DNA from: Planctomycetota bacterium
Lineage (GTDB): Bacteria > Planctomycetota > Phycisphaerae > Phycisphaerales > UBA5793
Reading direction: 5' to 3'
Length of the DNA: 64,000 bases
NCBI GenBank assembly: GCA_963205185.1
Contig: CAUJHZ010000053.1
Coordinates: 1-64,000 of the forward strand
This document shows, piece after piece, positions 43,085 to 55,192 of this stretch. Position 1 is the first letter of the stretch. The number at the start of each line of letters is the position of its first letter. Below the pieces are notes generated by a model. That model saw nothing but the letters and a program-made list of their open reading frames with translations, ran no database searches and had not been told where the DNA came from. Both the position numbers and the translations under genes were made by a program.

Positions 43085-43756
43085 TCATCCCCTGATGAGT
43101 TCCACCATAATCTTCGCAGCGGCGGTGCGGCCCATCGTCACGGCGGGGAGTTTGCCGGACTGCAAGGTAACCGCCTCGGCAGCGTGATCGTGCGCCAGCA
43201 CGCGGGCCCGTGTGCCGGGGCGGAGCATGTGGCGATCGACAAAGCGAAGGAACTTCTCGTCTTGATCGAGCACGCGAGCGATGCGCACTTCCGCCCCTTC
43301 CTCGACTTCGGTCAGCGCGGTGAGCGCCGCCTGCCGCACTTCGCCGGCGGCGGTTGGTATGGGATCGCCATGCGGATCGACGCTGGGAAAGCCGAGGAAC
43401 TCATCGATGCGGTCGAGCAGTTTGTCTGAGATCGCGTGCTCGAGGCTCTCGGCTTCGTCATGCACCTCGGACCAGTCGAGGCCGAGTGCGTCCACGAGAA
43501 AGCTCTCGATGAGCCGGTGCCGGCGGAGGACGCGCAGGGCGAGCGTGCGGCCGCGGGCGGTGAGTTTGACCCCGCCGTATGGCTCATAGGCGACGAGGCG
43601 TGAGTCGGCGAGGCTCCTGGCCATGGATGTCGCGGTGCCGGGCGTGACGCCCATGGCGCCGGCGAGCGACTTCATGGAGACAATCTCGCCCGCAGGCTCC
43701 GCCTGCTGCTCGAGATAGATTCGCTTGAGGTAATTCTCGACGGTGCTGCTGGGCAT
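43085..43756 (-). CDS. mntR: DtxR/MntR-family metal-responsive repressor
   Basis: 223 residues from ATG 43756, with GGAG just upstream. The winged helix STVENYLKRIYLEQQAEPAG, SLAGAMGVTPGTATSMARSL and VKLTARGRTLALRVLRRHRL is that of MntR/DtxR; the dimer and metal site follow (HRLIESFLVDALGLDWSEVH, DEAESLEHAISDKLLDRID), and a C-terminal SH3-like FeoA domain is present (VLDQDEKFLRFVDRHMLRPG). It is divergent from a Mn-type ABC operon, so it should repress that operon when loaded with manganese. Both promoters lie in the 121-base gap. Confidence 0.93.
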   Translation of the reverse strand: MPSSTVENYLKRIYLEQQAEPAGEIVSMKSLAGAMGVTPGTATSMARSLADSRLVAYEPYGGVKLTARGRTLALRVLRRHRLIESFLVDALGLDWSEVHDEAESLEHAISDKLLDRIDEFLGFPSVDPHGDPIPTAAGEVRQAALTALTEVEEGAEVRIARVLDQDEKFLRFVDRHMLRPGTRARVLAHDHAAEAVTLQSGKLPAVTMGRTAAAKIMVELIRG

Positions 43757-43780
43757 GGAGGCTCCGCGTCGGATGGCCAA

Positions 43781-43810
43781 ATTGTATTTCCCAATGCATC
43801 AGGTTGACAA
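43781..43810 (-). promoter_or_regulatory. mntR promoter (TTGTCA-18-TACAAT)
   Basis: On the minus strand TTGTCA (43805-43810) and TACAAT (43781-43786) are 18 bases apart, with a 24-base leader to ATG 43756. Its -35 box overlaps the -35 box of the opposite promoter. Confidence 0.7.
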
Positions 43811-43831
43811 CTGCAGGTGGGCCACTAATAT
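43804..43831 (+). promoter_or_regulatory. mntABCD promoter (TTGACA-16-TAATAT)
   Basis: Consensus -35 TTGACA at 43804-43809 and TAATAT at 43826-43831, spacer 16 bases (an alternative TATATT gives 19). The region is strikingly AT-rich for this genome. Confidence 0.75.
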
Positions 43832-43832
43832 A

Positions 43833-43848
43833 TTTTGATTAGTCAAAA
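43833..43848. promoter_or_regulatory. palindromic MntR operator candidate TTTTGATTAGTCAAAA
   Basis: Six-base inverted arms TTTTGA/TCAAAA around TTAG, directly after the -10 box, covering the likely transcription start of mntA. Position and symmetry suit a DtxR/MntR dimer site; that MntR binds it is inferred. Confidence 0.65.
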
Positions 43849-43877
43849 ATCCCTGGTTGAAAAACGGCGGAGATTCC

Positions 43878-44837
43878 ATGAAACTCAATGCATCGTCCGG
43901 GCGCGCGTCCTGGCTGCGCCGCTGCGGCGCCCGGCTCGGGCTGGCGGCCGCGGTGGCCGGCACGCTCCTGCTCGCGGTGGGGTGCGATCGCGAGGCGTCG
44001 AGCGGCTCGCCCCGGCCCGATGTGCCGCGCGTCGTTACGACGTTCACGATCCTGCAGGACATGGCCCAGAACGTCGCGGGCGACAAGGCGATCGTCGAGT
44101 CCATCACCAAGCCCGGCGCGGAGATTCATGAGTACCAGCCGACGCCTCTGGACATCGTCAAGGCGCAGTCGGCTGACCTGGTGCTGCGCAACGGCCTGGG
44201 CCTCGAACGGTGGTTCGAGAAATTCATGGGCAGCGTTCGCGATGTGCCCAGCGTCGATCTGAGCGAGGGCATCGAGCCGATCGGCATCGCGGAGGGACCA
44301 TACGACGGCAAGCCGAATCCGCACTCCTGGATGTCGCCGCGCAACGCGCTGGTGTACGTCGAGAACATCCGCAAGGCGCTGATCGAGATCGATCCGGCCA
44401 ATGAAGCCACGTACACGGCCAACGCCGCCGCGTACAGCGAGCGGATCCGCGCCATCGACGAGCCCCTGCGCGAACGGCTCTCGAGCATTCCGGCCGAGCA
44501 GCGCTGGCTGGTGACTTCGGAGGGCGCGTTTTCGTATCTGATCCGCGACTACGACATGCGCGAATTGTTTCTCTGGCCGGTCAATGCGGATGAAGAGGGC
44601 ACGCCGCAGCAGATTCAGAAAGTCGTAGATACGATGCGCAACTACCAGATCCCCGTGGCGTTCTCGGAGAGCACCATCAGCGACAAGCCGATGCGGCAGG
44701 TGTGTCGCGAAACCGGCGCGGCATACGGCGGGTTGCTCTACGTCGATTCGCTGACGGGAGAAGACGGCGTGGCGCCGACCTATCTCCAGATGCTCACCTA
44801 CAACGCCGAGACCATCGTCGCAGGCTTCGGTAACTGA
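43878..44837 (+). CDS. mntA: metal ABC transporter substrate-binding lipoprotein (Mn/Zn, TroA/PsaA family)
   Basis: 319 residues from ATG 43878, after GGAG. The lipobox LLLAVGC directs the protein to the membrane. The cluster A-I ligands appear in order: H in GAEIHEYQPTPLDI, H in NPHSWMSP, E in LVTSEGAFSYLI and D in YVDSLTGEDG. A Glu at the third position, not His, is the manganese-type pattern of PsaA/MntC (known for the family), unlike ZnuA. SESTISDKPMRQV matches the same subfamily. The gene heads a four-gene operon. Confidence 0.93.
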   Translation: MKLNASSGRASWLRRCGARLGLAAAVAGTLLLAVGCDREASSGSPRPDVPRVVTTFTILQDMAQNVAGDKAIVESITKPGAEIHEYQPTPLDIVKAQSADLVLRNGLGLERWFEKFMGSVRDVPSVDLSEGIEPIGIAEGPYDGKPNPHSWMSPRNALVYVENIRKALIEIDPANEATYTANAAAYSERIRAIDEPLRERLSSIPAEQRWLVTSEGAFSYLIRDYDMRELFLWPVNADEEGTPQQIQKVVDTMRNYQIPVAFSESTISDKPMRQVCRETGAAYGGLLYVDSLTGEDGVAPTYLQMLTYNAETIVAGFGN

Positions 44838-44849
44838 TCCGATCCAGAA

Positions 44850-45782
44850 GTGGGAACGAACAACGGCCATCACGACATCAAGATCGACCTGAGGGTCGAG
44901 GGCGTTACCGTTGCGTACAACAATGGGCACGTGGCGCTGCGCGACGCAACGTTCTCTCTTGCCCCCGGCACGATCTGCGGGCTGGTGGGCGTCAACGGCA
45001 GCGGCAAGTCCACGCTCTTCAAGGCGATCATGGGATTTGTGCGGCCGGTGCGCGGCAGCGTGAGCATCGGCGGATTGAGCGTGCGCGAAGCACATCGGCG
45101 CAATCTCGTTGCCTATGTGCCGCAGTCCGAGGAAGTGGACTGGGCCTTTCCGGTGAGCGTGTGGGACGTCGTGCTCATGGGCCGCTACGGCTACATGAAC
45201 ATGATGCGGATCGCGCGGCGGGCCGATCGCGAGATCGCCATGGCGAGCCTCGAGCGCGTCGGCATGGCGGAGTTCCGGAGCCGGCAGATCGGCGAACTCT
45301 CGGGCGGGCAGAAGAAGCGCGTCTTCCTCGCGCGGGCCCTGGCGCAGCAGGGGCGCATCGTCCTGCTCGACGAGCCGTTTACGGGCGTCGATGTCCGCAC
45401 TGAGGCGGCGATCGTGGATCTGCTGCGCGAGCTGCGGGCCCAGGGCCACATCGTCTTCGTCTCAACTCACGATCTGGGATCGGTTCCCGAATTCTGTGAT
45501 CAGGTCGTGATCATCAACCGCACGGTGCTGGCGGCGGGGCCGATGGAGACGACTTTTACCGAGCAGAACCTCGCGCGCGCCTTTGGTGGGGCGCTGCGCA
45601 ATCTCCGATTCGATCACACCGACGTGCCCGGCGTGCTGTCCAACGAACTGCGCGTGCTGACCGACGACGAAGCGGCGCTGGTCTTTGACGAAAGCGGCCG
45701 GCCGGCGCGCCAGATGATGTCGCCCGACGCTGATGCGACGGGCGCGGCTGAGCCGGCGGATGCGGCGGAGTCGCAGCCATGA
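44850..45782 (+). CDS. mntB: metal ABC transporter ATP-binding protein
   Basis: 310 residues from GTG 44850. Walker A is GVNGSGKST, the Q loop is [20 protein letters not shown] (a Mn/Zn ABC family feature), the signature is LSGGQKKR, Walker B is [12 protein letters not shown], and the H loop is VSTHD. After the ATPase ends near residue 250 there is a 55-residue extension rich in Asp and Ala ([14 protein letters not shown]...), longer than usual. It powers uptake through the two permeases. The stop overlaps the next start (ATGA). Confidence 0.95.
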
Positions 45783-46684
45783 TCGAGACGCTGCTCACGC
45801 CGCTGCACTACGAGTACATGGTCAAGGCGATCCTGGTGAGCGGATTCATCGGCGGGGTGTGCGCGCTGCTGTCGTGTTACGTCACGCTCAAGGGCTGGTC
45901 GCTCATGGGAGATGCGCTGTCGCACGCGATCGTGCCCGGCGTGGTGCTGGCATATTTCGCGGGCCTGCCGTTCGCGGCCGGAGCGTTTTTCAGCGGGCTG
46001 CTCGCCGCGGGGACGATGGGGTTCATCAAGTCGCGCACGCGCATCCGAGAGGATGCGGTCATCGGCATCGTGTTCACCACCTTTTTTGCGGCGGGACTGC
46101 TGCTCATCTCCCTGTATCCCAGCAACATCAGCCTCAAGACGATCGTGCTGGGCAACATCCTCGGCATCGCGAACCGGGACATCATCCAGTCACTGGTCAT
46201 CTCCGGAGTCACGCTTGTGGTGCTCGCGGTCAAATGGAAGGACCTGCTGCTGTTCGTGTTCGATCCGGCGCAGGCCCGGGCGGTGGGACTGAACACGAGC
46301 CTGCTGCACCTGATGCTCCTGACGCTGCTTGCGGCCACGGCGGTGGCGGCGCTGCAGGCGGTGGGCGCGTGCCTGGTCGTGGCGATGCTCGTGACGCCAG
46401 GCGCCACGGCTTACCTGCTCACCGACCGGTTCGGCCGCATGATGGGGCTGGCCGCCGCGATGGGCGTGACGACCTCGGTGTTGGGCGCCTACGCCAGTTA
46501 CTTTCTCGACGGTTCGACGGGCGGCTGCATCGTCGTCTTGCAGACGGCGCTGTTTCTCGCGGCGCTGTTTTTCGCGCCGGTGCACGGAGTGCTCGCGGGG
46601 CGGTGGAAGGCTCGCACATCGGGCCAATCGGGCACCTCGAGCCAGCCGGGAGATGAACTGTCGGCGGGGGCAGAAGCGCTATGA
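45779..46684 (+). CDS. mntC: metal ABC transporter permease
   Basis: 301 residues; ATG 45779 overlaps mntB. Eight to nine membrane helices in the TroC/ZnuB pattern: [40 protein letters not shown] (the family signature), [40 protein letters not shown] and [20 protein letters not shown]. It is one of a pair with mntD and should form a heterodimeric channel in the inner membrane. A 35-residue polar tail follows the last helix. Confidence 0.95.
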
Positions 46685-47550
46685 GCCTCAGCCACCTGCT
46701 CGAACCGTTTCAGTACGGCTTCATGGTGCAGGCCATGCTCGTGGCGGCGCTGATCGGCGCCGCGTGCGCGGTGCTGTCGTGTTACCTCGTGCTCAAAGGC
46801 TGGTCGCTCATGGGCGACGCGGTCTCGCACGCCGTGCTGCCGGGCGTCGTGCTGGCGTACATCGTCGGGCTGCCGCTGGGGCTGGGTGCCTTCGCAGCCG
46901 GCATGGTCTGCGCGGCTTCGACGGGTTGGATCAAGAACCACAGCCGCATCAAGGAAGACACCATCATGGGTGTGGTGTTCACCGGCCTGTTTGCGCTGGG
47001 GATCGTGCTGTTCACCAAGATCCACACCGACGTGCATCTCAACCACATTCTCTTCGGCAGCCTGTTGGGAATCGAGCGCAACGACCTCATCCAGGCAATC
47101 GTCTCGGCCGGTCTCACGTTTGCCATCGTCGTCGTCAAGCGGCGCGATCTCGTGCTCTACCTGTTCGACCCGAACCAGGCGCGGGCGGTCGGGCTGAACA
47201 CGACCTTCGTTCACTATCTGCTGCTCGCTCTGTTGAGCGGGACGGTGGTCGCCGCGCTGCAGGCGGTGGGGATCATCCTCACCGTCGCCATGCTCGTGAC
47301 GCCCGGCTGCATCGCGCATCTGCTCAGCGACCGATTCGATCGAATGCTGCTCATCGCGGGCGGCAGCGCCGTGGCCAGTTCGGTTGTGGGCACGTACGTC
47401 AGTTACTTCCTCAACGGAGAGACGGGCGCATGCATCGTGCTGGTGCAGGCGCTGATCTTTGTTGCCGCCATGGTGGGCTCGCCCAAGTACGGTTTGATCG
47501 CCCGGGCGCTGATCGCGCGGCACGTGGAGAACGGCGCCCAAGCCGGTTGA
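46681..47550 (+). CDS. mntD: metal ABC transporter permease
   Basis: 289 residues; ATG 46681 overlaps the previous stop. It is a paralogue of mntC along its whole length ([80 protein letters not shown]). Two different permeases, as in Bacillus mntABCD and TroABCD, support a Mn-type importer. It ends the operon; 43 bases then separate it from the convergent aquaporin gene. Confidence 0.95.
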   Translation: MSLSHLLEPFQYGFMVQAMLVAALIGAACAVLSCYLVLKGWSLMGDAVSHAVLPGVVLAYIVGLPLGLGAFAAGMVCAASTGWIKNHSRIKEDTIMGVVFTGLFALGIVLFTKIHTDVHLNHILFGSLLGIERNDLIQAIVSAGLTFAIVVVKRRDLVLYLFDPNQARAVGLNTTFVHYLLLALLSGTVVAALQAVGIILTVAMLVTPGCIAHLLSDRFDRMLLIAGGSAVASSVVGTYVSYFLNGETGACIVLVQALIFVAAMVGSPKYGLIARALIARHVENGAQAG

Positions 47551-47593: not shown

Positions 47594-48292
47594 CTACTTC
47601 TCGTCGCTCAATCCGATGCAGACTTGCCAGACGAGCGCTGCGAGGATGGCGCCGGCGATGGGGCCGAGCCAGTAGACCCAGTGGATGTCCCAGTAGCCGC
47701 CAATGAGCGCCGGGCCGAAACTCCGCGCGGGGTTCATCGAGGCGCCGGTCGCGGGGCCGAAGGCGAGGATGTCGGCCGCGATGGTCAGGCCGATGCCGAA
47801 GCCGCCGATCATGGCGCCCTTGCCCACGCCGCGGCTGTCCACGGCGGTGCCGATGATGACGAACATGAGAAAGAACGAAGCGACGATCTCGAGCACGAGG
47901 ATGGCGCCGGAACTCATGCCCAGGCCGCCCAGCGTGGCGCCGAGACGGGCCGCGTTGACCGCGTCGGCGTGCGTCGGAGTGAACACGGCCTTGAGGAGCA
48001 GCGCTGCAACCGTTGCGCCGAGCAGCTGGCTGAAGACGAACGCGGCCGCCCGCTTCGGATCCTGCTTGCCGATGACCGCCAGGGCGATCGAGACGGCGGG
48101 GTTGATCTGGCCGCCTGAAATGTGCATCGTGGCCGAGACCATGACGGCCAGGGTCAGGCCGTGCGCGATGGCGATGGGGAGCAGCCCGCCGCCGGAAATG
48201 ATCTGGTTGACGATGATCGCGCCCGCGCCGATAAAGGTGAGTGCGAACGTACCGACGAATTCTGCGATCGAGCCTCTGGCTGTCGGGTTCAT
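47594..48292 (-). CDS. aquaporin (MIP family)
   Basis: 232 residues from ATG 48292, with GGGAGG 6 bases upstream. The two half-helix motifs are GGQINPAVSIALAVIG and GASMNPARSFGPALIGG, and six helices surround them. The second NPAR carries the selectivity arginine, and the size fits AqpZ-like water channels; glycerol transport is not excluded. It is the last gene of a five-gene minus-strand array, 27 bases after the CHASE2 cyclase, so it is very probably in the same transcript. Confidence 0.93.
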   Translation of the reverse strand: MNPTARGSIAEFVGTFALTFIGAGAIIVNQIISGGGLLPIAIAHGLTLAVMVSATMHISGGQINPAVSIALAVIGKQDPKRAAAFVFSQLLGATVAALLLKAVFTPTHADAVNAARLGATLGGLGMSSGAILVLEIVASFFLMFVIIGTAVDSRGVGKGAMIGGFGIGLTIAADILAFGPATGASMNPARSFGPALIGGYWDIHWVYWLGPIAGAILAALVWQVCIGLSDEK

Positions 48293-48319
48293 GCGGACCT
48301 CCCGTTGCCAGATCGGCCA

Positions 48320-51157
48320 TCACTTGCTTTCGAGATGAATCACGCCGTCGAAGAGTTCTTCCGCATTGGACATGAACCGTGCAATTTCGCGGAGATAGAG
48401 CGCACTCAGACGCGACTGACCGTGCTCGGCGACGAGCTGCTCCCAGGCTGACTTCGCCACTTCGAGCCGGCGGTCGCGGTAGAGCCGCACAGCCCGGGCG
48501 GTCGCTTCGATGAGCGAGATGAGCTCCTCGTCGTCGGTGCCGGGCTCGACGGGCAGGACTTCGAAGAGTTCGACGGGCTTGGACTGGCCGACGACGGTGA
48601 CGAGCCCGATGGGCCGGCGGAGGATGTCCGGGCCGATCATCTCGTTGGTGCGGCCATTGATGAGAATCGACGTGCCGAACTGCTTGTTGGCCGACTCGAG
48701 CCGGGCGGCAAGGTTGACGGAATCGCCGATGACGGTGAAGTCGCTGAATTCGGGCGGCGCGCCGCAGTCGCCGACCGTGACGGAGCCGGACGAGAGGCCG
48801 AAGCGCATCGTCAGGCGGGGTTCGCCGCTGCGCATGGCTTCGAGATTCAACTCTTCGACGCGCTGCACGCAGGCAATGGCGGCGCGGACGGCGCGGTCGG
48901 CGTGCGAGGTGTCCTCTTCGAACGCGCCCCAGAAAGCCATGAGGCCGTCGCCGAGGAACTTGTTCACGTACGCCTCGTGGTCGGTGAGCAGTGCGTTCAT
49001 GCCGCCCATGTACTTGTTGAGGATCGCGACGGTGGCGCGCGAATCCATGGTTTCCGAGACGCTGGTGAAGCCGGCGAGGTCGCCAAAGAGACAGGTCACT
49101 TCGCGCTGCGACCCGCTCATGTCGATGACATCGGGATGTTCGAGCAGGTATTCGAAGAGGCGGCGGTGAATGCGATTGCCGAACTGGCGCGTCAGCCGCG
49201 ATCGCTCGCGCCGCTCGTGCAGGCCGCGCGAGAACGTCGAGCCGAACAGTCCGACGACAATGCCGGTCATCGGCGTGGCCAGCGGCACGAAATGATGCCA
49301 CGCGTCGAAGAAGAGAAATGCGTTGACCATGAGATATCCCAGCGCGATCACCACCGCCAGCAGCAGTCCCAGCAGCGGCCGGATCGAACGCATGCCCGCC
49401 ACGAACGCGGCGAACGAGCCGAGGGCGAACGTGAGCAGGGCGCCGACCCACGGCGGCGATTCAGCGAACGCCTCACCCGTCAGGACCATGTTGGCCATCA
49501 TGGCGTTGACGACCACGCCCGGGGTGAGCGGGCCGGCCGCGGTGGGGTAGACGTCGCTGAGCGAGCCGGTGGTGACCCAGCCGACAAAGACGATCTTGCC
49601 GCGGAGCATCTGCGTGAGTCGATCGCGGGCCGCGAACAACTCGCGCTGCTCGCGATCGATGTTGTCGTGCATCTGAAACCAGCGCCAGAGCGCGATTTCT
49701 TCGGAAGTGGCGTTGCCGCCGGGCGGCTGCGGCTGGCCGTCGGGCGTCTGGCCGAGCACGAACATCACTTGGTCGAGCAACTCGGCGTCGATGGCTGCGC
49801 GCCTGCTCGAGTCCGTCCAGTCTTCGGGAGCGAAGCGGTCGGCGCCGAGAAAGGCCTCAACCAGTTCGCGCGCGATCGATTCGTATTCCTCGCGCTTGGC
49901 CGTGATCGCGGCGAGTTTCTCGTCGAGGTCAATGAGCACGCCGATGGCGACGTGGCCGAACGTCGGAGGATCGTTGTCGGACTGGCGCAGCAGACCCAGC
50001 GCCGCGTTCTGCGATGCGTGCACCATGTGGCCCGAAAGCAGGTTGAGCGGTGGCGAGCCGTCTTCGGTGCGCGGCCAGGCGATGAGCGCGCGGCCATTGT
50101 TCAGCGGCAGCGTCGCCTGCCCGATGCGCACGGAGGTCTCATCGACGCGAATGTCGTTGGCGGCAATCCGCTGGTGCGCCATGGCCGCCGCCACGCCGAG
50201 TTGAGGATACAGCCGGCCGCCGAAGCCGATCACAGGAGGCACGCGGCGCACGGCTCCGTCGCGATCTGTTTCGGTCGTCACAAAGCCCGGATGACTCGCC
50301 GCGGTAGCGATCTCCATGACGGGTACTTCGATCGCGTCGGCAAGGCGCACGACCCCCGAGATTCCCAGTTCGGGCATCTGCGGCGCAAGCGTGCGCGTGA
50401 CGTTGATGCGATCCACGACCTTGCGGATGAGCCGTTCCAGACCGCGGTCGCGCACCCCGGGAGCGTTGCGCGGAGCCATGTGATCGAGAACCGCCTCGAC
50501 CGTCAGAGGTCCGCTGCCGGTGAGTTCGAGTGCTGCCTCTTCCACGGCGAGTTCGCGGAAGGACTGGAAACGGTCGTTCACGCGTTGCGAGCGCATCTCA
50601 TCGAGATGCGCCTGCTCCATGAGCGAAGGAGGGTCAATGTAGATGTTCTGCTTGAGGCCGTCGATGACGCCGCGCAAGGCCGCTGCGCCCTCGGCCCCGC
50701 GCCAGAGAGGCCCGATCTGTTCGCCGACCGATGGGAACTTGATCGCCACGATCGTCTGCGCCCGGGCCTCGCGGATGGCCTTGACCAGGGCGCGATCCTG
50801 TTCGGGCTCGTCGAGCGTGCGCTCGTCAAACAGAATATCAAGGGCGATGACGCTCGGGCCATAGGAGTCGATCGTCGAGATCGCTTTGCCGATGAGCGAG
50901 CGCTTCCAGGGCCAGCGGCCGAAGGACTCAAGTGAACTGTCATCAATATCGACGTGCACGATGCGGTCGCTGGCGCGCGGCGGATTGAGGCGGCCGAAGC
51001 GGAAGAGAAAATCGCTGGCCAGACCCTCGGCGCGGTCGCTCCACATCGGAATGGTGAGCATGTATGCGGCGACGGCGGCCAACAGCGATCCGACCAGCCA
51101 CGGCATGAGCGAGCCGCGTCCGGAACCGGAACCGAACAGTCGAGCCATGAACGCCAA
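48320..51157 (-). CDS. CHASE2-domain class III adenylate/guanylate cyclase
   Basis: 945 residues from TTG 51157 with GGAGG five bases upstream; ATG 51148 is an alternative. A membrane helix near 15-32 precedes a long periplasmic CHASE2 domain (DRIVHVDIDDSSLESFGRWP, GPSVIALDILFDER, PRTEDGSPPLNLLS), and three helices lie near 560-640. The cyclase domain is complete: D693 in CLFGDLAGF and D737 in FLGDGLMAF bind metals, K733 reads the base as in adenylate cyclases, and N815 and R819 in VNLAARLE stabilise the transition state. It should make cAMP in response to an extracytoplasmic signal. A short helical tail follows. Confidence 0.93.
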   Translation of the reverse strand: MAFMARLFGSGSGRGSLMPWLVGSLLAAVAAYMLTIPMWSDRAEGLASDFLFRFGRLNPPRASDRIVHVDIDDSSLESFGRWPWKRSLIGKAISTIDSYGPSVIALDILFDERTLDEPEQDRALVKAIREARAQTIVAIKFPSVGEQIGPLWRGAEGAAALRGVIDGLKQNIYIDPPSLMEQAHLDEMRSQRVNDRFQSFRELAVEEAALELTGSGPLTVEAVLDHMAPRNAPGVRDRGLERLIRKVVDRINVTRTLAPQMPELGISGVVRLADAIEVPVMEIATAASHPGFVTTETDRDGAVRRVPPVIGFGGRLYPQLGVAAAMAHQRIAANDIRVDETSVRIGQATLPLNNGRALIAWPRTEDGSPPLNLLSGHMVHASQNAALGLLRQSDNDPPTFGHVAIGVLIDLDEKLAAITAKREEYESIARELVEAFLGADRFAPEDWTDSSRRAAIDAELLDQVMFVLGQTPDGQPQPPGGNATSEEIALWRWFQMHDNIDREQRELFAARDRLTQMLRGKIVFVGWVTTGSLSDVYPTAAGPLTPGVVVNAMMANMVLTGEAFAESPPWVGALLTFALGSFAAFVAGMRSIRPLLGLLLAVVIALGYLMVNAFLFFDAWHHFVPLATPMTGIVVGLFGSTFSRGLHERRERSRLTRQFGNRIHRRLFEYLLEHPDVIDMSGSQREVTCLFGDLAGFTSVSETMDSRATVAILNKYMGGMNALLTDHEAYVNKFLGDGLMAFWGAFEEDTSHADRAVRAAIACVQRVEELNLEAMRSGEPRLTMRFGLSSGSVTVGDCGAPPEFSDFTVIGDSVNLAARLESANKQFGTSILINGRTNEMIGPDILRRPIGLVTVVGQSKPVELFEVLPVEPGTDDEELISLIEATARAVRLYRDRRLEVAKSAWEQLVAEHGQSRLSALYLREIARFMSNAEELFDGVIHLESK

Positions 51158-51184
51158 GCGGTCCTCCGACAGCGGCAGGGCCGG

Positions 51185-52249
51185 TCAGTTGCCTTCGAGA
51201 CAGCCGCAGCCGGAGCCGCCGCCGCGGCCGTGCTCGATGAACTCCTCGATGGTTCCCTCGAACCCCTCGCGGCCGAATGATTCATCGAGACCGAGATCGC
51301 GGATGAGGTGCTGCCCGTGCGAGACGACCATGGTGAGGAAGGGCACTTCCTCGGGCGAGACGGCGCCGGCGAGCGGCAGGAAATACGTGTGCGCGAACGC
51401 GTTGAGCGAGGGCAATTTGTGTTCGCCGCTCGAGGCGTCGTCGGCGGTCAGCGCCACCTTGATCGAGTTGATGTACTCGATCTCGATGGCGCGGATGCGG
51501 TTGGTCGGTACCCCAAAGGCGCGGAAGCCGTCGATGCCGTCCCAAACGATGCGCCAGCCGGTCCCCTTGACAGCCAGCGTCGCGCTCGGCGTCTTGATCT
51601 CGAAGTCGTTGGAGAGGCCGACGTGATCGACCTTGACATCCGCCAGGCCGTATTGCATGGTGACGCGCGTACGAAGCGTGTCGCCGGCCTGGATCATCTC
51701 GGGCAGCGTGATGCGCGAGATGCGGTCGATGAGCATCGACGCGTTCATGCCGATGCGCAGGGTGATGATCGAATCGGGGCCGGTGCGGACTTCGCAGCCG
51801 GTGGCGAGCACGTCGTTGATCGCCGCGTCTTTCCACGGTGACTGTACGTCGGGCCGCCACTGGGCACGACTGCCTTCCACCTTCATGACGACCGCCTGGA
51901 GAATCTTCACTTCACCCTCGGGCAGCGGCTCGATCCTGGCCAACTGGTCGCCGAGGTCGATGCGCGGCAGGGTGATCACCGTGCCGACGACGAGGTTCTT
52001 CGCGTCGACGTCCGGGTTGGCGTCGGCGATGGCGGAGGCGAACTCGCTGTTGCCGTACCACTTGTCCGCGATCGATTCGAAAGTGTCGCCTTCGCGAATG
52101 GTGTAGGTAATCGGCTGGTCGTCGAGCACTTCGGGCTCCTCGACGGGCGCCGGAGCCGGCGTCGGCTGTTCCTGGGCCCGCGCGCGAGCGCCGGCAAGAG
52201 CGAACACCAGCAGGCACAGCAGAGCGAGTCGAAGTTGAGTGCGCATCAT
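51185..52249 (-). CDS. secreted LysM + FecR-domain protein
   Basis: 354 residues from the ATG at 52249 (one codon before a second ATG). The signal peptide (LRLALLCLLVFALAGARARA) is followed by a LysM domain (ITYTIREGDTFESIADKWYG, ... NLVVGTVITLP), which binds peptidoglycan or chitin-like glycans. Residues about 110-270 form a FecR-type domain (AVVMKVEGSRAQWRP, TGCEVRTGPDSIITLRIG, EIKTPSATLAVKGTGWRIVW). The tail ends in a Gly/Cys stretch (GGGSGCGCLEGN). It is periplasmic and lies 27 bases upstream of the CHASE2 cyclase, so it may relay wall state to it (inference). Confidence 0.9.
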   Translation of the reverse strand: MMRTQLRLALLCLLVFALAGARARAQEQPTPAPAPVEEPEVLDDQPITYTIREGDTFESIADKWYGNSEFASAIADANPDVDAKNLVVGTVITLPRIDLGDQLARIEPLPEGEVKILQAVVMKVEGSRAQWRPDVQSPWKDAAINDVLATGCEVRTGPDSIITLRIGMNASMLIDRISRITLPEMIQAGDTLRTRVTMQYGLADVKVDHVGLSNDFEIKTPSATLAVKGTGWRIVWDGIDGFRAFGVPTNRIRAIEIEYINSIKVALTADDASSGEHKLPSLNAFAHTYFLPLAGAVSPEEVPFLTMVVSHGQHLIRDLGLDESFGREGFEGTIEEFIEHGRGGGSGCGCLEGN

Positions 52250-52275
52250 CGTGATCCGTTTCGGCGAATCGCCAG

Positions 52276-52872
52276 TCAGAAGTCCTGCCGCGGCACGGAA
52301 ACCAGACCCGTCCGCCGGTCCTGCACGCGCCCGATCGTCGCCATCAGTTCGATCCCCGAGAGCGCCTGGTTCTCAGATTTCCGGTCCATCAGGCCCTCCC
52401 ACTCAAGTTCGCGCAGAGCGTACCGGGGTATCGGACCGAACAGCCGCATGTTCACGCCGCCCTTGATGTCGGCCTCGACGCAGATCGCCCGCGCGATCCA
52501 GCCCGCCTGGGCCGTTTCGTTTGCCATCGGCTGTTCATCTTCAGTGAACCAGCCGCGCTGACGCGCCATCTGCAGTTCGGCTTCGAATCCTGCAGCCGAA
52601 ACGGCGCCGGCCGCGTCACCCTCGTTATCCTCGGATTCCGCCGCGGCTTCGGGCAGGAGATCGAACGTCAGCAGCAGGGCGTGCAGGGCGTCGCGATTGC
52701 TTATGGCGTTCTGCGTCGCCAGGCCATCCCAAAAGTCGAGTTCGGCGGTCGCATCCGTGCCGCCATGCGTATCCGCGACCGAGGCGTCAAGCAAGGTGCG
52801 AGCGCAGCCGCCAAGCAGCAGCGCGGACGCCAAGGCGCCGGCAGACAAGGCGTGGAGCATCTCAGAACGCAT
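52276..52872 (-). CDS. uncharacterised lipoprotein in sensor operon
   Basis: 198 residues from ATG 52872; ATG 52860, just after the barrel gene stop, is also possible. The lipobox ASALLLGGCARTL is clear. The rest is acidic, with ATQNAISNRDALHALLLTFD, LQMARQRGWFTEDEQPMANE and IKGGVNMRLFGPIPRYALRE. No family is recognised. It overlaps the outer-membrane barrel gene by 11 bases and precedes the LysM-FecR gene by 26, so all are coupled. It may bridge barrel and periplasmic sensor (inference). Confidence 0.72.
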   Translation of the reverse strand: MRSEMLHALSAGALASALLLGGCARTLLDASVADTHGGTDATAELDFWDGLATQNAISNRDALHALLLTFDLLPEAAAESEDNEGDAAGAVSAAGFEAELQMARQRGWFTEDEQPMANETAQAGWIARAICVEADIKGGVNMRLFGPIPRYALRELEWEGLMDRKSENQALSGIELMATIGRVQDRRTGLVSVPRQDF

Positions 52873-54331
52873 AGTTCAACCCCGCGTAGAAGAAGTGGCG
52901 CTCGTCATCGCTGCCGGCGGGCATGGCGTCTCCGGGAATGAACAGGCCGTAGCGCACATCGAGCGACAGATCGCTGTAGATCTGCCAGTCGATGAACAAG
53001 TCGAGTTCAGCGCCAAGGAATCGCTCGCCGCCGGTCGTGGTGAAACTGACGGGCGCATCAGAGTCGAGTTTGTGCAGCAGGTAACCGTCGACGCCGATGC
53101 GCATCTTGTCGAAGATACCCTGGCCGCGCCACGGCGTGGCGCTGGCGCCCATGCGCATTGACATCAGGTTGGACATGTTGGGCCCGAGCACGAGCCCGGT
53201 ATTGGCGTAGCCCAGCGAATTGAACGCGCGATCATCGGTGCCGCTCAGGTTGCCGCCGAAGGTGTTGGAGGTGTGCTGCCGGTCCTCATCGCCCGAAGCC
53301 GCGACGATTTCCCAGTCAAGCCGCAGGCCGTTGGGCCGACCCCAGCGCGGCGCGTAGATGAGCCTGGCATTGCCCGCCCAGGCGCGGATCGATTCTTCCG
53401 TTTGCGCCACGGGCGCCGCAAAGGGCGAAATGCTGCTGCTCAGCGACTGGCCGTATTCGTACACGAACTCTGCCTGGTAGAACAGTTCGGTCGTGATCTC
53501 GCCGCTGCTGCCGACGCCAAGGTAGCGCGAGTCATAGTGATACCGCGTCGGAAAGGGCGTACCTAGCAGCAGGATGGTCCGGCTGTCGCGATCGTTCTGA
53601 TCCTGCTGGTCGAGAAAGAAGAGATAGGGCCGGTGGCGATCGAAGCCGGTGTAGGTGAACATCACACCCATGAACTTGCGATCCACGTCGGTGTCGTAGC
53701 CGGGACGCGAGCTGTCGAAATCGATCGGACCGGTGGAGGGCGTCAGGCCGACCATGCCCATGACTTCGAGGTTGTGCAGTTCGAGCCCCGCCTGCGCCGA
53801 GTAGAGCACTTCGCTCAGCGCCAGGCCCGAGCCCCAGTTGACGAACTGCCGCCCGCCCTGAAACCAGAAGTTGTCATCCGGCCGCTTGCCGGCGTCGGCC
53901 AGGCGCGCGGTGCGGTAGTCAAAGCGATACCAGTAGCGGTCGGCGATGGGCTCTTCAAGGTTGTCGCCACGCCCGTCGAAACTGTCGCCGGAGTTGAAGT
54001 CAAGGTAGTTGAATCGCAGCCGGCCGTAGGCCTCGTGCCCGGCCATGGAGAAGTCGGCCCAGAGTTTGGTGTCGCTCTGGCGGAGGATCCGCGTGTTGCT
54101 GCTCGCGTCATCGCTGGCGACGAACCCGAATGTCGTGTAGCCGCCCAGCAGCAGGCGGCCGGACTCGGCGAACTCGAGATCCGCCGCGCCGACCTGGCGC
54201 GACATCTCGATTTCGCGCAGCGTGCGCTCGAGCCGCTCGAACGTCTCTGTGTCCTGGGCCCTGGCCGTGGATTGCAGGCCGATCGCAGCCGCCGGGCCGG
54301 CCAGACCCATCACCACCCATCGCAGCCTCAT
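52862..54331 (-). CDS. outer-membrane beta-barrel protein, porin-like
   Basis: 489 residues from ATG 54331, 8 bases after GGAGG. Signal peptide (WVVMGLAGPAAAIGLQSTARA), a short coiled-coil (ERLERTLREIEMSRQVGAAD), then about sixteen alternating amphipathic strands (GYTTFGFVASDD, LWADFSMAGHEAYGRLRFNY, RYWYRFDYRTARLADAGKRP, FWFQGGRQFVNWGSGLALSE) and a last strand ending in FYAGLNYAF with the usual aromatic C-terminus. The size and repeated Trp/Tyr/Phe fit alginate-export-like or porin barrels. It is the first gene of the sensor operon. Confidence 0.82.
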   Translation of the reverse strand: MRLRWVVMGLAGPAAAIGLQSTARAQDTETFERLERTLREIEMSRQVGAADLEFAESGRLLLGGYTTFGFVASDDASSNTRILRQSDTKLWADFSMAGHEAYGRLRFNYLDFNSGDSFDGRGDNLEEPIADRYWYRFDYRTARLADAGKRPDDNFWFQGGRQFVNWGSGLALSEVLYSAQAGLELHNLEVMGMVGLTPSTGPIDFDSSRPGYDTDVDRKFMGVMFTYTGFDRHRPYLFFLDQQDQNDRDSRTILLLGTPFPTRYHYDSRYLGVGSSGEITTELFYQAEFVYEYGQSLSSSISPFAAPVAQTEESIRAWAGNARLIYAPRWGRPNGLRLDWEIVAASGDEDRQHTSNTFGGNLSGTDDRAFNSLGYANTGLVLGPNMSNLMSMRMGASATPWRGQGIFDKMRIGVDGYLLHKLDSDAPVSFTTTGGERFLGAELDLFIDWQIYSDLSLDVRYGLFIPGDAMPAGSDDERHFFYAGLNYAF

Positions 54332-54458
54332 GCAGCAGCCTCCATGATCGCACATCGGCACATCGGGCCGGGTGCGATGAGCGGTATCGTACCGCTCGAA
54401 CCCGCCCGCCGCGAATCCGGCCGGTCGATTGCTGGGAATTGGATACGGCGATGGCTCG

Positions 54459-55076
54459 CTACTTGCGCTGCGACGCGACGAACTCCTCGAGACCGAGGAA
54501 CTCGATCATGTGCTGGTCGTAGACCTTGGCGTGCTCATCGCGCGAGAGATCGAGGCGCAGTTCGTTAATGACCTTGGTCCCCTGGCCGACCCACTGCTGC
54601 CAGGTCTCCTTTGAGATGGTCTCGTAGATGTGCTGGCCGAGCGGGCCGCGGAAGGGGGGCTTGTCCATCTGCGTGCCCGGCCGGCCGGTGCGCTGGCAGA
54701 TGAAGGCGCCTTCGGGGATCTCCGGCTCAGGAGCCGCGTCCTTGACCTCGGGCACAGGCGCGCCGATCTTGCGGAGCAGGTCGGCAATGGCATTGCGGGG
54801 CATGAGATCGCCGCGCCGGGCCGCGACCTTGTAGCCGCTGGTGAGGATGCCCGCCGCAGCCGAGTTGTCGCCGGCGGCGATGAGCGCCTGCCCAGCGAGT
54901 TGATAGGCCTTGCTCATCTCCGGCTGGAGTTCAATGCAGCGCTGAAACGACTGCGCGGCTTCCTTCGCCTGTCCCGCCTGGAGCAAGGCGTTGCCGAGGC
55001 TGAAATGGGCCATCTCATTGGTCGGATCGGCCTCGGCCATGTTGCGAAACTGCGCAATGCGTTCAGATGTGTCCAT
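54459..55076 (-). CDS. TPR - YggX (Fe(2+)-trafficking) fusion protein
   Basis: 205 residues from ATG 55076, five bases after AGGAG. Residues about 10-90 are two TPRs (AHFSLGNALLQAGQAKEAAQ, ELQPEMSKAYQLAGQALIAA). Residues about 120-205 match YggX: FICQRTGRPGTQMDKPPFRG, PLGQHIYETISKETWQQWVG, GTKVINELRLDLSRDEHAKV, MIEFLGLEEFV. The Cys near the start of the domain is kept. YggX protects iron-sulfur enzymes and aids iron delivery in enterobacteria. It lies 127 bases upstream of the barrel gene, on the same strand. Confidence 0.85.
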   Translation of the reverse strand: MDTSERIAQFRNMAEADPTNEMAHFSLGNALLQAGQAKEAAQSFQRCIELQPEMSKAYQLAGQALIAAGDNSAAAGILTSGYKVAARRGDLMPRNAIADLLRKIGAPVPEVKDAAPEPEIPEGAFICQRTGRPGTQMDKPPFRGPLGQHIYETISKETWQQWVGQGTKVINELRLDLSRDEHAKVYDQHMIEFLGLEEFVASQRK

Positions 55077-55192
55077 CACCACTCCTGCCCTTTGGCGGCA
55101 CTTCGAGCGTAAAGGGGATTATAGCGGTGAGGTATTGGAGACCCTGCGAGCAGAAAAGCGGCGACGAAGAAGCCGAGCCCGTTTATCTTGCG

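Follow-up and report, generated by a model that had tools for sequence, protein, structure and literature searches.

Five genes lie end to end on the minus strand of this planctomycete genome and encode, in order, an outer-membrane barrel, a lipoprotein, a LysM-FecR protein, a CHASE2 cyclase and an aquaporin. Do they form a single apparatus that spans the cell envelope, which of them belong to it, and what would it do? The original prediction saw in all five a complete osmotic or wall-stress sensing circuit that makes cAMP. Here, we arrive at a narrower reading, to which we give about an even chance of being right: the first four genes (the module) would constitute an envelope-spanning receptor that makes cAMP, and the aquaporin would be a passenger from an arsenic-type gene cluster.

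Gene arrangement

Both the open reading frames and their spacing were confirmed in the window, that is, the whole 64,000-nucleotide stretch of DNA analysed here; the five genes are real and as closely packed as had been claimed. The features are as follows.

52862..54331, minus strand: barrel (open reading frame 52862-54361, likely ATG at 54331); Pfam Alginate_exp
52862..52872, minus strand: 11-nt overlap of the barrel stop and the lipoprotein start, ATGCGTTCTGA
52276..52872, minus strand: lipoprotein, starting inside the barrel gene; without family match
51185..52249, minus strand: LysM-FecR; Pfam LysM and FecR; signal peptide
48320..51157, minus strand: CHASE2 cyclase; Pfam CHASE2 and Guanylate_cyc
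47594..48292, minus strand: aquaporin; Pfam MIP; a neighbour, outside the conserved unit

The lipoprotein and FecR genes are separated by 26 nt and the CHASE2 and aquaporin genes by 27 nt. Between the FecR and CHASE2 genes the gap is 27 nt if the cyclase starts at a TTG, or about 36 nt if it starts at a better-placed ATG behind GGAGGA. A promoter and terminator scan gave no signal above chance.

Upstream of the module, positions 54459-55082 encode a TPR protein fused to an Fe(2+)-trafficking (YggX-type) domain. This gene was considered as a fifth part of the module and rejected, since it is present in 61/61 genomes with or without the module. Positions 43085-47550 are occupied by a plus-strand znuA-znuC-znuB-znuB cluster with two tandem membrane subunits, opposite a DtxR/FeoA-type regulator gene on the minus strand (43085-43780).

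Conservation of the four-gene unit

The barrel, lipoprotein, LysM-FecR and CHASE2 cyclase genes form a conserved planctomycete gene unit. This is well shown by its occurrence in several families of the Phycisphaerales and in other Planctomycetota, and a search of the phylum recovers the module outside the class as well. Named genomes with close orthologues place the window's genome in the Phycisphaerales. The order barrel-lipoprotein-FecR-CHASE2 is exact in 33 of the 52 loci examined, a set that includes repeats from one genome (three loci from G013 and two from G025). In seven more loci the set of four is complete, with FecR in two or three copies, with the FecR gene placed after the cyclase or with an inverted cyclase. 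The cyclase is absent from the fetched stretch in about 12 of the 52; some of these stretches stop at contig ends, and four loci (L100, L134, L144 and L145) are without it although the stretch runs well beyond the module. Linkage of the four genes is far beyond chance, whereas that of the aquaporin is not. The proposed envelope-spanning set, with its order kept in relatives, thus stands for four genes reaching from the outer membrane to the cytoplasm and not for a fifth.

Co-occurrence gives the same picture. Of the 61 genomes examined from the order, 24 have the barrel and 24 have a long CHASE2 cyclase; 23 have both and 36 have neither (Fisher p of about 1e-14). The two discordant genomes, G033 and G041, have one gene each; both are incomplete assemblies and the gene that was found lies at or near a contig edge. 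FecR-domain matches, as distinct from LysM-only matches, are confined to module-bearing genomes. A shorter CHASE2 cyclase occurs in G018 and G038 without barrel, lipoprotein or FecR, so that the module cannot be assumed from a CHASE2 cyclase by itself. A barrel-pattern scan of 84,980 species, made with the narrower barrel alignment A3, returned 22 loci, all of them apparently planctomycete; one is labelled Vicinamibacteraceae but is identical to the congener G004.

Some surroundings of the module are recorded here. Two distant modules without a local cyclase (L139:4052-11000 and L145:1-4184) have very large secreted, repeat-like proteins as neighbours. G014, from another family of the order, has its module close to rpoB (L053:4701-17820), as does the window.

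The outer-membrane barrel and its putative lipoprotein partner

The barrel protein starts with a signal peptide, followed by a short periplasmic helix near the N-terminus (residues ~29-51) that is modelled at low confidence. Pfam Alginate_exp is matched in 22/23 of its orthologues. Its AlphaFold2 model (pLDDT 73, pTM 0.74) is predicted to have the barrel fold of AlgE, which is also the best structural match (Z = 26.3, 377 residues, 3.6 Å). OmpM porins match the same model with Z = 18.7.

An overlap of exactly 11 nt between the two genes, as in the window, occurs in 27/52 loci besides it. The shared bases encode both the last residues of the barrel, usually Tyr-Ala-Phe, and the first residues of the lipoprotein. 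This shared overlap suggests that the two genes may be read from one transcript with coupled translation.

The lipobox of the lipoprotein is LGG-C23, and is often missing in more distant members of the phylum. The sequence gave no family match in Pfam or NCBIfam, no match to the SLH profile and nothing in a sequence search against solved structures. An AlphaFold2 model based on 22 orthologues (pLDDT 87.7, pTM 0.80) is more informative. In structure comparison, ranks 1-13 are all SLH domains with Z = 9.4-10.5, values that are modest on their own for a helical fold but that come from a uniform list. The top match has Z = 10.5 over 130 residues (3.8 Å); rank 14 is an S-layer cytochrome with Z = 6.8 and the next match has Z = 3.0. 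The SLH match spans residues 41-192, where three repeats are visible in the sequence. Foldseek E-values are only 0.016 at best and upwards, and the fold is therefore assigned because both programs agree. On the predicted model, the soluble part of the lipoprotein is a triple SLH fold. The motifs equivalent to TRAE are rewritten as [ST]N-x-[DE], G124 and [ST]G-x-[EQ], with N59, G124 and G173 invariant. With the SLH ligand motifs altered in this way, binding of the lipoprotein to the cell wall is not assured.

The fold of AlgK, the lipoprotein with which AlgE works, is TPR. The barrel-lipoprotein pair matches the AlgE/AlgK layout and AlgE is clearly the closest fold of the barrel, which suggests an exporter or uptake pore whose use is regulated by FecR and the cyclase, with transport as the main function and signalling as feedback. 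We consider this unlikely: the lipoprotein here has an SLH fold, not a TPR fold like AlgK, and there are no polysaccharide synthesis genes next to the barrel in the window, where the neighbours are housekeeping and zinc-transport genes.

A second alternative, which we also judge to be unlikely, is that the barrel and the SLH-fold lipoprotein serve mainly to tether the outer membrane to the wall as a split analogue of OmpM, with the cyclase reporting failure of the tether. That an outer-membrane lipoprotein with an SLH fold adjoins a barrel, that this barrel resembles the OmpM porins (PMC10628300) and that the FecR protein carries LysM in this genus all point in this direction. However, N59 and G173 stand in place of the Arg of the TRAE motif of SLH domains and the motif is altered at G124. 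The module is also missing from most related genomes (37/61 are without the barrel), so that it is not a universal tether.

The FecR protein and the CHASE2 cyclase

In the envelope-receptor reading that we prefer, the next component is the LysM-FecR protein, which has a signal peptide visible in the sequence, a LysM domain at residues 49-95 and a FecR domain at residues 154-232. FecR is kept in 24/26 orthologues and LysM in 5/26, all of the latter being members of this genus; LysM was rejected as an essential part of the module on this count. Within this genus, the C-terminus of the LysM-FecR proteins is a conserved Gly-Cys-Gly-Cys tail (51185-51230 in the window). In one other family FecR fronts Ala-rich proteins of 856-1748 residues, and in three loci (L037:10616-15862, L042:9721-14937 and L038:1807-5475) such FecR-fronted Ala-rich, helix-like proteins, here of 1222-1748 residues, replace the short FecR protein.

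The cyclase matches Pfam CHASE2 with 128.6 bits (cut-off 26.3) and Guanylate_cyc with 63.3 bits (cut-off 21.9). Its catalytic set is complete, with two metal Asp residues, Lys and Thr for the purine and the transition-state Asn and Arg. Asp693, Lys733 and Asp737 are invariant in 36/36 orthologues, and Thr808, Asn815 and Arg819 in all 35 that cover them; the claim of complete catalytic residues is borne out in every orthologue that covers them. The Lys/Thr pair is the mark of class IIIb adenylate cyclases, and the product would be cAMP. The window genome encodes two further class III cyclases and only one CHASE2 protein. Effectors that bind cyclic nucleotides are patchy in their distribution and were not found in some module-bearing genomes.

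The aquaporin gene

The aquaporin has a MIP domain, two NPA boxes and an ar/R filter that reads His44-Ile175-Ala184-Arg190 by alignment. This filter is TIP/AQP8-like, and a reading of the protein as a NIP-type metalloid channel was rejected on it. Only in the window genome (G000) and the sister species G003 is the gene next to the cyclase, 27 nt behind it in both; the congener G001 has none. In G004, the cyclase is followed by arsR, then an SBF/ACR3-type transporter gene and then the aquaporin. G002 has arsR, the SBF/ACR3-type gene and the aquaporin at a contig end, and the contig with its module stops 219 nt past the cyclase match; given these contig ends the layout is probably the same as in G004. 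On this gene order in congeners the aquaporin was rejected as a part of the module, and its pairing with the cyclase in the window looks like a remnant of such a cluster from which arsR and the pump gene were lost. No finding connects it with the receptor. The genome has a second aquaporin gene (L158:4804-6071), which lies behind one for a low-molecular-weight phosphatase (ArsC-like).

A circuit of five parts for osmotic or wall stress with the aquaporin as a component, although consistent with the close spacing in two species, is highly improbable because the gene is not kept in congeners and accompanies arsR and an SBF/ACR3-type gene in two of them. The osmotic reading of the original prediction is therefore not supported, and nothing indicates osmosis in particular.

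Comparison with known systems

That FecR and CHASE2 proteins co-occur, as the original prediction stated, is published for Campylobacterota (PMC9239204) and, with a kinase, for Burkholderia (PMC5192318). The Campylobacterota cluster comprises a CHASE2 adenylate cyclase, a FecR protein, a TPR protein and a phosphodiesterase (PMC9239204). It shares with the planctomycete module a CHASE2 cyclase beside a FecR-domain protein, conserved across species, but an AlgE-type barrel and an SLH-fold lipoprotein are not reported for it (PMC9239204) and the planctomycete module has no internal phosphodiesterase or TPR gene. In the BiofilmReg operon of Burkholderia, which encodes a response regulator, LysM-FecR, a CHASE2 histidine kinase and DUF4136, a LysM-FecR gene likewise directly precedes the gene of a CHASE2 receptor; this operon differs in its kinase output, its DUF4136 protein and the lack of a barrel (PMC5192318). 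In Magnetospirillum, mtxA is followed by a CHASE2 cyclase gene, so that a periplasmic partner again adjoins the cyclase, but MtxA is TPR/Ig-like and not FecR, and no barrel is described (PMC4439547).

Parallels to the outer-membrane pair are of a different kind. OmpM is an outer-membrane tether in which SLH, coiled coil and barrel form a single chain; it occurs in diderm Firmicutes and other Terrabacteria and is reported to be absent from Gracilicutes (PMC10628300). OmpM likewise pairs an SLH fold with an outer-membrane barrel, but does so in one polypeptide with a canonical SLH motif and with no link to signalling genes, whereas the planctomycete module uses separate overlapping genes. AlgE shares the barrel fold and Pfam Alginate_exp, but is only ~17-18% identical to the barrel, which has a lipoprotein partner of different fold and is linked to FecR and CHASE2. 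As in FecA/FecR/FecI signalling, a FecR domain is present in a periplasmic protein; neither an ECF sigma factor nor a TonB-dependent receptor is found among the neighbouring genes in the window, and the barrel is AlgE-like.

A literature search joining CHASE2 cyclases with planctomycetes found no paper in the collection searched. The remark in the original prediction that no described system with this set is known is correct in part: the FecR/CHASE2 pair was already known, and what is new is its fixed coupling to an outer-membrane barrel and an SLH-fold lipoprotein.

A model for an envelope-spanning receptor

In our model, an AlgE-type barrel in the outer membrane would be partnered, through the overlapping genes, by the SLH-fold lipoprotein, the SLH fold being one that is used elsewhere for holding the cell wall. 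The secreted FecR protein, fixed to peptidoglycan by LysM in this genus, would convey the state of this pair to CHASE2 in the periplasm, and CHASE2 in turn would control the class IIIb cyclase in the cytoplasm. What is sensed is probably the occupancy of the barrel or the attachment of the outer membrane to the wall. We infer a physical complex, its direction of signalling and its input, as well as sensing by the barrel and lipoprotein, relay by FecR, receipt by CHASE2 and cAMP as the product.

The envelope-receptor reading is favoured because of the gene order, the co-occurrence, the overlap, the SLH and AlgE folds, the catalytic residues and the restriction of the FecR domain to module-bearing genomes, and because FecR-CHASE2 pairing is found independently in other phyla (PMC9239204, PMC5192318). 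It is weakened by the dozen or so loci without a cyclase, by the shorter cyclases of G018 and G038, by the patchy effectors and by the altered SLH motifs.

A more specific version, in which barrel and SLH-fold lipoprotein act as a split tether that signals through FecR and CHASE2 to the adenylate cyclase, would turn outer-membrane attachment to the wall directly into a second messenger; we regard this as unlikely. Planctomycetota belong to the Gracilicutes. If this version is true, a split SLH tether would sit in a phylum of that group, from which SLH-based tethers are reported to be absent. CHASE2 occurs widely as a receptor domain in bacteria, and the unit described here points to its likely outer-membrane and periplasmic partners, so that its signal can be probed one gene at a time. 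In the lipoprotein, Planctomycetota have a cryptic protein family predicted to take the SLH fold; it bears on how these bacteria hold and monitor their outer membranes.
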